Shown piece by piece: positions 48,733 through 53,773 of a stretch of DNA of 64,000 nucleotides. Below the pieces are notes generated by a model. The model was given only the letters and a program-made list of their open reading frames with translations. It was not told the DNA's origin and did no database searches. The DNA comes from Cytobacillus firmus (GTDB taxonomy: Bacteria; Bacillota; Bacilli; Bacillales; Cytobacillaceae). The stretch is from NCBI RefSeq assembly GCF_023612095.1, contig NZ_CP086235.1, positions 3,049,501 to 3,113,500 on the forward strand. The letters run 5' to 3'. Each line of letters starts with the position of its first letter. Position 1 is the first letter of the stretch. A program made the position numbers and the translations under genes.

Positions 48733-49707
48733 TTACACCCACACCTCAATATAAATTCCTAAGATTGCAAACAATAACCCAACCGTCCAGAACGTAACAA
48801 CAACCCGCCATTCAGACCAGCCTACCAATTCATAATGATGGTGAAGCGGGCTCATGCGAAAAATCCGTCTGCCGGTGGTTTTAAAAGAGGCAACCTGCAG
48901 AATAACAGATACTGTTTCAATAACAAAAACCCCGCCGATAATAATCAGGATGATTTCAAGCTTTGTCAGGATGGCTATGGTCGCAATAGCACCCCCAAGA
49001 GCCAGTGAACCTGTGTCTCCCATAAACACTTTTGCAGGATGGGCGTTAAAGACAAGGAAACCCAATACTGCTCCAACTACTGCTACAGAAAAAATGGATA
49101 CTTCAAATTGGGATTGATTCCAGGCCAGTACTGCAAATGCTCCAAAAGCGATTGCGGCCGTCCCGGAAACAAGTCCATCAAGTCCATCTGTCAGATTGAC
49201 AGCATTCGAGAATCCGACCAGCCAGAAAATAATAAATAAAACATATCCCCAGCCCAAATCAACCGAAATATCTGTCAGTGGAATATGTACTTCTGTTGAT
49301 AAGTCATTCTGCTTATAAACAAAATAAAAAATCACGGAAATAATAATCTGGCCCAGAAGCTTCTGTTTTGAAGTCAGGCCTAAATTACGCTTCAATACCA
49401 CTTTAATAAAATCATCCAGAAAACCGAGGAGTCCAAACCCCAGGGTAACCAGAAGCAGCAAATATGTTTCTACTGCAGGCTGTGAAAATTTACCGGTCAT
49501 AAATAAAGTGGTCACCGTGACGGATAGAAGAATCATAATTCCGCCCATTGTCGGAGTACCTGTCTTCTTCATATGGGATTTCGGGCCTTCTTCACGGATG
49601 CTTTGCCCAAATTTTAACCTTCTCAGGAAGGGAATAAATATGGGAGACAGCAATACCGTAATTAAAAAACCTGCCAATATTGTGAAAAAAATAACTTGCT
49701 CCATCAT
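48733..49707 (-). CDS. mraY: Phospho-MurNAc-pentapeptide transferase
   Basis: MraY makes lipid I by joining phospho-MurNAc-pentapeptide to undecaprenyl phosphate in the membrane. The 324-residue multi-span protein shows [10 protein letters not shown], the catalytic aspartates in GFLDDFIKV and [14 protein letters not shown], and [14 protein letters not shown]. Two adjacent ATG codons (49707, 49704) follow a strong GGAGGGG. It begins right after the small Mur-domain gene and abuts murD. Confidence 0.97.
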
Positions 49708-49709
49708 AC

Positions 49710-50159
49710 TTATCCCCTCCTTTCGCGTTTGGCATTACCCGCAGTTTCCGCTAATCTTGCAGCCATTACAGCAATATCATATGTTGTTTCTTTTTCTTTA
49801 AGACTTTCTTCATCCGAAATAAGGAAATTAGTTGTGTTCATCTTTTCTTCTGCTTTACTTAATTTATTAATATATAATTCCATGATATCCTTTAAGCCTT
49901 TCGTTAAGTCGTTAGTATAAAAAATAGGGAAATGATTCGGGGTGTATGACGGCGTTTCGGCATTCTTATTCCAGATTGCAGCAACAGCCCCTCTTTCAAT
50001 AGCTTCCTTCAGATTTCCGTCTTCCCCGAAAGGAATATAAATTCCTTTTGGCTGCAGGTCAGAAGAGGACGATGCCACGGTATGAAATTCCAGCTCATGA
50101 TCCTTTATTCCTTTGACTGCCGGAAACAATTCCGCTAAATCCTGATACGTCAAATACAT
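49710..50159 (-). CDS. Stand-alone Mur ligase N-terminal domain protein (MurF-like), no catalytic domain
   Basis: A 149-residue protein. Residues 1-100 ([60 protein letters not shown]) match the UDP-MurNAc-binding N-domain of Mur ligases, best MurF: compare the MurE N-domain next door ([21 protein letters not shown]). No ATP loop (GTNGKT-type) and no third domain exist. The tail (100-149) is polar and basic at the end. Gaps are one base to murE and two to mraY, so translation looks coupled. There is no room for a lost catalytic part and no frameshift to repair. Function unknown. Confidence 0.8.
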
Positions 50160-50160
50160 T

Positions 50161-51621
50161 TTATCGCTCCTCTATAGCCTCTTTTGCCACCAGACGGTCA
50201 TCAAAATCAAAAACATGGCTGCCTACAATCTGATAGGTCTCATGACCCTTTCCTGCTATTAAAATAACGTCTCCTGCACTGGCTTTTTTCACCGCATAGT
50301 GAATGGCTTCTTTTCGATCGACGATTACTTTATAACTTTCTTCTTTTACTCCCTCTTCCATATCCCTCAGGATTTGGATCGGGTCTTCACTTCTCGGATT
50401 GTCTGAAGTAAAGATTGGGTCTGTACTGTACTGGCATGCAATTTCAGCCATAAGCGGACGTTTGGATCTGTCTCTGTCTCCTCCGCAGCCCACGATGGCG
50501 AAAATGCGCTTCTGTGCAAATTGCTTTACTGTTTCCAGTGCATTTTTCAGGCTGTCCGGAGTATGTGAATAATCAACGATCACAGAAAAATCCTGGCCTG
50601 CATCTACGGTTTCAAATCTGCCGGCTACACCTTTAACTTCTTCTGCAGATTTAATGATTTGAGAGATTGATATCCCTGCAGCGATACCTGCTCCAATACT
50701 GGCAAGGACGTTATAGATGCTGAACTTGCCTATCATTTTTAAAGAAACTTTATGCTTTCCGAATGGAGAGATTAAGTCAAATTCCGTACCGGCAGCAGTC
50801 ATTTGAATATTAACGGCCCGCAGATTAGCTTCCTGATCAATTCCATAGGAAATGACATGAGCAGCCGTCGATTTTTCATATTCTGCAGAAGCAGGGTCAT
50901 CTGAATTTAAAATGGCATACTTCGGTTCTCCATGATTATAGGCGCTTCCAAGCTGGGCAAACAACAGCCCTTTTGCTCTCCTGTATTCATCCATCGTTTT
51001 ATGATAATCCAGGTGATCCTGTGTCAGGTTCGTAAATACGGCTATATTAAAATCACAGCCATGAACACGGCCTTCAACAAGTGCATGAGAAGACACTTCC
51101 ATTACAGCTGAATCCACACCGGCATCTGCCATTTTTCTAAATGTGCTTTGCAGAGTCAGGCTTTCAGGAGTAGTATTTTTCACTTCAAAAGTTTCATCGG
51201 CAATCTTCGTATACATCGTGCCAATTAAGCCGGTCTTTCTTCCTGCGTCTGCAAGAATCTTTTCAATTAAATGACTTGTTGTTGTTTTGCCATTAGTCCC
51301 TGTTATGCCAATTAAATGAAGCTGCTTGCTCGGCTGTCCATAAAAAGCATCAGCCAGCACGGCCAACGCCCGTTTTGTATTTTTAACTACTATAACCGGG
51401 ATATCCAAGTCCAGTTCTTTTTGGGCAACAACAGCTGCTGCACCTTTTTCGGCAGCAGAAGCTGCAAAATCATGGCCATCTACCGTATAGCCCTCAATGC
51501 AAACAAACAGACTTCCAGGCAGAACTTTCCGGTTATCGTTAACAATCGCTGTGATTTCAGGGTTTTCACCTTTATATGTCATATAAGGCTGTAAAAATCG
51601 CAGCAGTCTATGTAATTCCAT
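50161..51621 (-). CDS. murE: UDP-MurNAc-tripeptide synthetase, mDAP type
   Basis: MurE adds meso-diaminopimelate to UDP-MurNAc-L-Ala-D-Glu. The ATP loop [29 protein letters not shown] and [17 protein letters not shown] are complete, and DNPRSEDP is the motif specific to mDAP ligases. I use the ATG at 51621, nine bases after AGAGGA, giving 486 residues; an ATG at 51630 is in frame. It is followed within one base by the small Mur-domain gene. Confidence 0.97.
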
Positions 51622-51811
51622 CTTTACCATTCCTCTCATGTTAAAACAGAGCAAACTATTCCCTTTTTTAATGAAACTGGTCAAAATAAATAAATATAAT
51701 CAAAACAACATTCTAAATGATGGCGATATATATTGTACAGGATAATTGCTTTTTTAGCTATTTTATATATAGAAGCAGAACCACGAAAGTATGTTACAGT
51801 TTCCTTACAAA

Positions 51812-51857: not shown

Positions 51858-53773
51858 TTATTTATTATCAAAATACAGGCGGATCGTTGAACCTTCCTTT
51901 AACTTAATGCCCGGCTGCGGCGTTTGTTTTACCACCGTATTCCCTGTCCCGCTGGCATCAATTTTCAGGTTAAGATATAGTTCCCCAAGGTCTTTCTTTG
52001 TCATACCTACCATATCAGGAACCTCAATCATTGGGGAATCCATCCATGTCAGCTCTTTTTCAATTTGATTTTTGCGGGGCTTTACACCCATCGCGCGCAG
52101 GCTGTCCCCCATGATTTCCCCTACAATCGGAGCAGCTACAACACCCCCAAATTGAACGGTTCCTTTTGGATTATCCACAGCCACATACACGACGAGCTGA
52201 GGATCATCAGCAGGTGCAAACCCTATGAATGATACGATATGGTTATTTTCCAGGTACCGGCCATTTTGCGCTTTTTGTGCAGTCCCCGTTTTCCCCCAAC
52301 ACGATATCCATCAACGAACGCTTTTTTTCCTGATCCTTTTGCCACAACTGACTCAAGCGCTTTGCGGATTTCATCAGATGTTTCCTTTGAAATTACTTTT
52401 CTTTTTGCATCAGGCGATTTTTTCATCAATACTTCACCTGTTGCTGGATTTATAAGCTCTTTTGCTATATAAGGCGTATATAATGTTCCCCCATTAACCG
52501 CAGCTGAAATGGCTGCTACCTGCTGAATCGGGGTAACGGAAACCCCCTGACCAAAAGCAGTGGTTGCCTGCTCGACTGGGCCAACCCGATCGAGATTAAA
52601 CAGGATCCCTTTCCCCTCTCCCTGAAGGTCGATACCGGTCTTTTCGCCGAACCCGAAGTCCCGGATATATTTAAATAGTGACTCTTTGCCTAATCTTTCA
52701 CCCAGCTCTACAAAGCCGGGATTGCAGGAATTCTGTACTACTTCAAGATAAGTCTGACTGCCATGTCCGCCTTTTTTCCAGCATCTCAGTCTGGCACCGC
52801 CAACTTCAACAGATCCCGGGTCGTGGAAATGATCTTTTTCCAAATTTACCTTTCCCTCTTCTAATGCAGCTGCCAGAGTAATGATTTTAAATGTTGAACC
52901 TGGCTCGTATGTACTCCATATCGGCAGATTACGGTTGTAGATCTCAGGAGGAACATTTTTAAAATTCGCCGGGTCAAAATCCGGTCTGCTGGACATCGCA
53001 AGAACCTCTCCATTATTTGGATTCATGGCAATTGCAATTATTCCATCAGGATTATATTCCGCCTGAGCTATATCAAGCTCCCTTTCTACAATAGTCTGTA
53101 TCTTTGAATCGATGGTAAGCTTTAAGTCCATTCCATCAACCGGCGGCTTATAGTCATCCGCCATATCGTTCATGCGCTCTCCCTTTGCATTCGCATAAAA
53201 CTTAACAGAACCCTTTTTCCCTTTTAGCTTTTCATCATAATATAACTCAAGGCCCATAAGACCCTGATTATCAATACCCGCAAACCCCAGAACATGAGAT
53301 AGGTAATTACCGAAAGGATAATGGCGTTTTGAATCTTCACCAATGTAAATTCCTTCAATACCCAATGCACGGATTTCTTTCGCTTTTTCATGGGAAATCT
53401 TTCTGCCTTGAGGAATCTTCACACTTGATGCCTTTTTGGTGATAAGCTCGTAGGCTTTTTCCTTTGACATATTCAGTACTGCAGCCAATTTCTCTGCAGC
53501 ATCTGCAGGATCTTTGATTTGTCTGGGTACAACATAGACAGTTGGAGCACTGACATTCGTAGCCAGTGGAACACCATTTCGGTCAACGATTTCTCCTCTT
53601 TCCGGTTCGAAGGGGATATCTCTGCTCCAGAGCTCCTTTGCGCCATCTGTAAGCATATTCCCCAGAAAAAACTGAACATATCCCAGACGCAAATCAATTA
53701 TAAAAAAAACGAGAATACCAACAAACAACGCTGCAGTCAGCCGTTTTCGAACGGTTACATTTGAAACACGCAT
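51858..53773 (-). CDS. spoVD: Stage V sporulation protein D (penicillin-binding protein), frameshifted in this sequence
   Basis: SpoVD is a class B PBP required for spore cortex synthesis, partner of SpoVE. Visible are an N-terminal membrane helix, the dimerisation domain, the STFK active site in YEPGSTFKIITLAAALEEG, the SCN motif and, C-terminal, a PASTA domain (EVPDMVGMTKKDLGELYLN). The KTG motif falls at the frameshift: a run of four T on the + strand (52289-52292) is one short. Repair gives YRVGGKTGTAQKAQNGRY and about 638 residues. A candidate SigE promoter lies upstream. Confidence 0.93.

Follow-up and report, generated by a model that had tools for sequence, protein, structure and literature searches.

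The window analysed here, a stretch of 64,000 nucleotides from the spore-forming soil bacterium Cytobacillus firmus (contig NZ_CP086235.1), carries a division and cell-wall gene cluster in which a short ORF lies between murE and mraY. The ORF is separated by 1 base from murE and by 2 bases from mraY. The region comprises the following features:

48733..49707, minus strand: mraY, downstream of the promoter-like element
49710..50159, minus strand: stand-alone MurF N-domain gene of 149 codons, by sequence comparison a relic of the cluster's murF
49714..49721, minus strand: probable mraY ribosome-binding site, read from the sequence, within the last codons of the relic gene
49764..49835, minus strand: tail, residues 109-132, a block very probably constrained at the DNA level, with a promoter-like element
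49775..49783, minus strand: CATATGATA, minus-10-like element of the sigma-E/sigma-K class, inside codons Thr126-Ile129
49797..49803, minus strand: TCTTAAA, minus-35-like element, 13 bases from CATATGATA, with a Leu codon inside
49854..50159, minus strand: N-domain part, residues 1-102, with the MurF N-domain fold but DSR and DGH motifs lost (profile match 6-104, structure model and motif counts)
49860..49922, minus strand: second block of low silent change, residues 80-100 (pS values, 29 genomes of the genus)
50161..51684, minus strand: murE, given as the longest ORF; the true start is probably near 51621

The stand-alone ORF ends where mraY follows, and the central ATP-binding domain and the C-domain of the MurF ligase (TIGR01143) are absent. 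The description in the earlier note of a MurF-type N-domain only, set tightly between murE and mraY, was confirmed. No NCBIfam match was obtained for the ORF, and PF01225 (Pfam Mur_ligase) was not among its matches at E <= 10, while the whole-genome search with this model returned four other genes. In the records examined, the gene is annotated only as “hypothetical protein” or as pentapeptide synthase, and it was not found among the titles and abstract openings listed from an open-licence library. Within the same cluster, spoVD is split into two ORFs (51858-53773 of the window, minus strand) with a frame change at the KTG box in its transpeptidase domain. The region is a single frame in the relatives L199, L201, and L206, and the split reflects either a true lesion or a mistake in the assembly. 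Outside of the cluster, there is a second MurE-like gene, encoding 486 residues (L002, G000:C1:3292186).

The predicted structure of the stand-alone protein shows the MurF/MurE N-domain fold, as had been proposed for it. The DSR and DGH motifs of the MurF N-domain have a role in UDP binding. Both are present in the N-domain of catalytic slot MurFs, i.e., MurFs encoded between murE and mraY, whereas neither motif occurs in any of 186 distinct stand-alones. For these counts, partial matches (<60 bits or start after profile position 30) were excluded and L066, a contig-cut full-length copy, was dropped. In the long set each motif was scored in 9 of 12 sequences, the other three being two 313-residue copies and L075; the latter was scored without motifs owing to a shifted start of the slice, and both motifs are present in full L075. 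Since DSR and DGH are missing in the stand-alones, normal substrate binding is unlikely. Judged from its motifs, the stand-alone protein has no catalytic activity and probably does not bind the substrate in the normal way. A PxxxPxxFP segment is kept in 180 of 187 rows; it is common to the slot MurFs and was not seen in the ddl-linked MurF.

Residues 11-80 yielded a pN/pS of 0.34 compared to 0.17 for murE and 0.08 for mraY, by the same measure in 29 genomes of the genus and with an identical 373 of 406 pairs for all three genes. For residues 1-102 the ratio is 0.345. The median whole-gene dN/dS is 0.34 for the stand-alone gene, 0.071 for murE, and 0.025 for mraY, where only pairs with pS 0.1-0.6 were used (385, 111, and 132 pairs, respectively), so that the sets differ between the genes. 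From these ratios, the N-domain is under weak to moderate selection at the protein level.

Matches to the stand-alone gene at E <= 1e-30 were found in 144 of the 193 genomes of the window's family, which includes Cytobacillus, Neobacillus, Mesobacillus, Niallia, and Robertmurraya (names from 80 named loci); the remaining 49 genomes are without such a match. All 144 matches are free of internal stops and about equal in length. Under 12 other family codes, short versions also occur in at least 67 genomes among the matches listed, where one short version has an internal stop and three comprise only 121 codons. Altogether, the stand-alone gene was found under 13 family codes of Bacillales among the matches listed. 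In 98 of 99 loci, the ORF matched, which is short or, in some families, full-length, shares its strand with murE and mraY and lies between them. With the exception of slots that hold a full-length murF, mraY is the immediate next gene in 98 of 99 loci; one locus ends before mraY, and the 99 loci include some places counted twice. For Geobacillus, which had been suggested to carry a full murF here, a stand-alone gene of about 150 residues annotated as hypothetical protein was found instead. Records titled Paenibacillus (L198), Pseudomonas (L208), and Chryseobacterium (L218) contain this Bacillaceae locus with 97, 73, and 49% identity, respectively, and their titles are probably mislabelled. Stops, frameshifts, or neutral substitution as marks of a pseudogene were not found, given zero stops in the 144 family matches and the pN/pS of 0.34; two copies are broken (L097, L098) and one is strongly diverged (L099). 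The earlier view that the gene is kept and does not represent debris is upheld by these values.

In other Bacillales families, the same murE-mraY slot is occupied, among the matches listed, by a full-length murF encoding 450-468 residues. One such full-length slot MurF has its closest named relatives in genera such as Calidifontibacillus, Anaerobacillus, and Aquibacillus, which is a comparison of the proteins and not of the slot. A profile (A1) that was built from stand-alones only gave about 60-93 bits for the slot MurFs of other families compared to about 40 bits for the family's own ddl-linked MurF, and slot MurFs were its top match among MurFs. A TIGR01143 search (E <= 1e-50) was carried out with 43 genomes. 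In the ten genomes where a full-length slot murF was checked, no further MurF scores above the TIGR01143 cut-off, and the 21 stand-alone genomes have exactly one, which is located outside of the slot; three of these 21 also have MurF-like genes under the cut-off. The remaining 12 genomes comprise three degraded family members, one contig-cut case, two with a dead copy, and six whose slot was unchecked. In genomes with a ddl-linked MurF, the slot contains either the stand-alone piece or nothing. This includes the genome of the window, where a murF was located beside ddl, the place at which the earlier note had suggested to look for it.

The distribution of these states was followed on a MurE+MraY tree of 72 genomes, which was calculated with a quick method, is unrooted, and has 23 weak branches among 69 inner ones. 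The full-length state is spread across deep branches and the stand-alones are found in one derived part, with three full-length rows sitting weakly beside one stand-alone. Between full-length and stand-alone the tree requires two changes of state, whereas absence requires 18. This distribution suggests essentially one old truncation, which was followed by many losses. By profile scores, MurF counts per genome, and the tree, the gene at 49710-50159 is a relic of the cluster's own murF, as one of the two options in the earlier note had it. In two genomes of another family (L069, L070), the slot contains a 313-residue MurF without DSR, DGH, or P-loop. In the genomes with a dead slot MurF, the sole TIGR01143 match at E <= 1e-50 is a MurF-like protein of about 525 residues (L278 in G442, L279 in G399), which adjoins a distant ddl and whose N-terminus, by eye, is apparently membrane-spanning and replaces the N-domain. 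This second case supports the path, as in it too the catalytic motifs of the slot copy are lost, the N-domain part is kept, and another MurF-like gene is present.

The tail of the gene shows a different pattern of conservation from the N-domain. In residues 113-132, pS is 0.22 and pN 0.15, compared to a pS of 0.54 in residues 11-80. Nine-codon windows with pS < 0.30 account for 36 of 141 windows in the stand-alone gene, but only for 1 of 490 in murE and 1 of 316 in mraY. Apart from those in the tail, such windows are located at the gene start and in residues 78-97. Residues 81-100 have a pS of 0.26, with 9-codon windows as low as 0.14 (29 genomes of the genus), and this block perhaps contains a translation start inside the gene or another DNA element. 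Behind the constrained part of the tail, pN/pS rises to 0.95 (residues 133-149).

The sequence [TS]YD is encoded in the tail by 107 of 126 distinct short ORFs. In 106 of these 107, the codons are (A/T)CA-TAT-GAT, i.e., CATATGAT, compared to 23.5 expected from the murE and mraY codon use of each genome and a maximum of 40 in 20,000 draws; TAC, GAC, and other Thr or Ser codons are avoided. The codon test was limited to ORFs encoding [TS]YD (107 of 127 short ORFs, with L066 among the 20 excluded), and the counted sequences are related, hence the counts are not independent. A Leu codon 19 bases upstream is CTT, CTG, or CTC in all 95 ORFs that have Leu there (of 106), whereas TTA, TTG, and CTA do not occur although 52 were expected. 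The conserved DNA reads as a TCTTAA-like box, 13 bases counted from the 7-mer, CATATGATA, and then AGCTGT, about 75 bases before mraY, with conservation extending to the CTGT beyond the minus-10 box. No motif was found in 19 of the 126 short ORFs, including that of Geobacillus (L094) and four from the genus of the window (L034, L099, L100, L101). Past the minus-10 box (CATATGAT), third codon positions are more variable than first and second positions, which argues that some peptide-level constraint remains. Overall, the tail is very probably under constraint at the DNA level and, from its pattern of conservation, is regulatory-type DNA, a point that goes beyond the earlier note.

The family genomes without the gene give further insight. 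Thirty genomes without a strong stand-alone hit were taken, in which the gap between murE and mraY measures 1 base in two (L109, L116) and 118-286 bases in the other 28, referred to as gap-only genomes. CATATGAT is kept in 20 of the 28, at 54-75 bases before mraY and with near-identical conservation at both boxes, and the element is lacking in the other eight. The comparison of these gaps shows that the DNA element outlives the gene. In this context, the claim of a dedicated tail has to be divided: conserved the tail is, but mainly as DNA and not as a protein feature, given that silent sites are nearly as constrained as amino-acid sites and that the DNA is kept in 20 of 28 gap-only genomes. 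The element was absent before mraY in all of 30 further genomes without a strong stand-alone hit, which include five with a MurF-sized slot ORF and L159, whose mraY start is poorly anchored, and in all of 12 loci whose slot MurF is full-length or long but dead. The mraY match of L159 (G210) has two in-frame stops in a 3.2 Mb genome.

In the 120 bases before mraY of the 20 element-keeping gap genomes, the frame of the element has 2 stops compared to 77 and 94 in the other frames, and this tail frame often has its own start. In the 28 gaps, the longest ORF that runs up to mraY measures 41.5 codons in the median (range 17-59), compared to 15.5 codons in dinucleotide shuffles, and reached p < 0.05 in 18 of the 28, including four of the eight without the element. 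In four gap-only genomes (L120, L126, L129, L132), bridge sequences are present but a tail motif is not visible. In families without a remnant the effect is weak, with p < 0.05 in only 4 of 15. Since the gap frames stay open up to mraY, these data suggest that, in the window's family, the slot stays open because it serves as a translated bridge into mraY. In some genomes, the open frames may also be inherited from the coding state.

We consider it fairly probable that the tail element is a promoter; a sigma-E type is a tentative assignment, to which we give slightly less than an even chance. CATATGATA agrees with the CATA-type minus-10 box of sigma-E promoters. The minus-35 consensus of sigma-E is KMATATT. 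Compared to it, 47 of 106 ORFs have 0-2 mismatches and 59 have three or more. The commonest upstream boxes, TCTTAAT and TCTTAAA, differ at two and three positions, respectively, two of which are highly conserved. In other stand-alone families, upstream boxes include TCATATT, TCATAAT, ACATAAT, and TCTTATT at a spacing of 13, and in three related loci CATATGATT is retained together with an upstream box that does not resemble the consensus. The pattern TCATATT-N12..14-CATAnnnT occurs at 14 sites in the genome of the window and the reversed pattern at none; at nine of these 14 sites, an ORF with a ribosome-binding site is found close by. One of the sites lies 52 bases upstream of an ORF which we take to be spoIIIAA, a sigma-E gene, and other nearby ORFs resemble luxS or thiolase genes. 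Since only this one sigma-E gene was recognised, the genome count is a weak control. A spacing of 12 +/- 1 between blocks of 8 and 10 bases is given for sigma-E in a figure legend of PMC517825, and the 13 bases between 7-mer and CATA agree with it.

Upstream of spoIVA in 20 genomes, no uniform match to the sigma-E consensus was found. A sigma-E scan between murD and spoVE did not discriminate, since many matches also scored in the last 60 bases of murD, and the presence of spoIVA in all 66 genomes tested leaves no contrast with non-sporulators. For B. subtilis, the accessible parts of PMC1925097 and PMC517825 describe that spoVE-murG is controlled by sigma-E from within this operon and that spoVE has two promoters. 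A sigma-70 promoter in the tail was rejected, as the one site in 49600-50300 is located outside of the tail and does not score above shuffles. An antisense gene was rejected as a cause of the low silent change as well: the ORF 49696-49920 (plus strand) is not kept open in relatives. Across the final 70 codons, a given antisense frame lacks stops in at most 4 of the 29 genomes of the genus, and in none of the 30 others. RNA structure was not detected by RNAalifold in the 65-base block, and Rfam yielded a single match, under the gathering score, in murE.

Taken together, we favour, at a little better than even probability, that the gene is a non-catalytic relic, which persists as a translated bridge and contains a promoter, perhaps of the sigma-E type. 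By comparison, the slot murF has lost its ATP and C-terminal domains as well as the DSR and DGH motifs, so that the front third remained; in the order of events that we infer, this happened when the ddl-linked MurF took over catalysis in the ancestor of a large Bacillales group. The frame of the relic would then serve as a bridge carrying ribosomes from murE to mraY. Given the predicted fold and the moderate selection, the N-domain protein probably has a minor, dispensable, and non-catalytic role, e.g., contact with other Mur proteins. The last approximately 40 codons would hold a promoter of sporulation (sigma-E) type that starts mraY-murD-spoVE-murG in the mother cell for cortex synthesis. 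A reading with two reused layers, in which the N-domain protein belongs to a vegetative wall-precursor complex, the tail promoter hands mraY-murD-spoVE-murG to cortex synthesis, and the same path has begun again in a distant family, appears possible but rather doubtful.

It might also be that the gene is a plain fossil, with an N-domain that decays slowly without function, so that only the promoter-like DNA matters. Its constraint is indeed below that of the neighbours, both by whole-gene dN/dS (0.34 compared to 0.071 and 0.025) and by pN/pS of residues 11-80 (0.34 compared to 0.17 and 0.08), 49 of 193 family genomes are without a match, and broken (L097, L098) or strongly diverged (L099) copies exist. 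However, a pN/pS of 0.34 is far below 1, and the fold residues and the open frame are kept under 13 family codes among the matches listed, probably since one old truncation; we regard mere decay as unlikely. That the protein binds UDP-MurNAc-peptides and tunes the flow from MurE to MraY, as proposed in the earlier note, would agree with the MurF/MurE N-domain fold and the gene position, but we consider it very improbable, as DSR and DGH are gone in 186 of 186 stand-alones and present in catalytic slot MurFs. A sequencing or assembly error that truncated a full murF is refuted by similar-length matches in 144 of 193 family genomes and by mraY lying directly next in 98 of 99 loci, and is practically out of the question.

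Regarding the tail, it could encode a small functional peptide or leader, i.e., a nested mini-gene from about residue 93 for which the N-domain is a dispensable extension. The frame that stays open in the 20 element-keeping gap-only genomes, often with its own start, would fit here, as would the codon periodicity after CATATGAT and the low silent change around residues 80-100, which resembles that at the starts of the stand-alone gene and mraY. A selected peptide does not account for the avoidance of TAC, GAC, and other Thr or Ser codons in 106 of 107 ORFs, the four bridges without a visible tail motif, or the pN/pS of 0.95 in residues 133-149, which makes this explanation quite improbable. 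Similarly, we consider it rather improbable that the conserved DNA serves as a binding site, or as some other DNA element, without being a promoter. Conservation on to CTGT past the minus-10 box and the imperfect upstream box speak for such an element, whereas the two boxes with constant 13-base spacing, their fitting distance from mraY, and the lack of both RNA structure in the block and Rfam matches above the gathering score speak against it.

The preferred explanation of a relic with bridge and promoter describes an old gene that looks reused and not discarded, and in whose far end a switch that turns on the following genes may also reside. Although few operons have been studied as well as the division and cell-wall cluster, this gene, present under 13 family codes among the matches listed, bears only the names “hypothetical protein” or pentapeptide synthase in the records examined. 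If the explanation is true, the locus shows the displacement of an essential enzyme whose remains turned into regulation, gives a handle on the switching of wall-precursor genes from growth to spore-cortex synthesis, and warns against naming these 150-residue proteins a synthase.

Among known systems, the closest is the slot copy of MurF (UDP-MurNAc-tripeptide--D-Ala-D-Ala ligase) in other Bacillales, which shares the slot, the N-domain fold, and the PxxxPxxFP-type segment, whereas the stand-alone is without P-loop domain, C-domain, and DSR or DGH motif. The Mur-ligase fold is also found as a subunit of another complex in 8r6s, which we take to be the MurE-like subunit of plastid RNA polymerase; unlike the stand-alone, this subunit is a nearly whole protein in another context. 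A precedent for Mur ligases as physical complexes is the MurE-MurF fusion of Bordetella pertussis with its MurG scaffold, although the Mur ligases in the portion of that report at hand are whole proteins and no stand-alone N-domain (PMC6420597). For the tail element, the spoVE promoters P1 and P2 of B. subtilis offer a parallel as internal sporulation promoters of the murE-mraY-murD-spoVE operon. In the accessible parts of these two reports the promoters are described for spoVE, whereas the element found here precedes mraY and is located inside the relic gene (PMC517825, PMC1925097).
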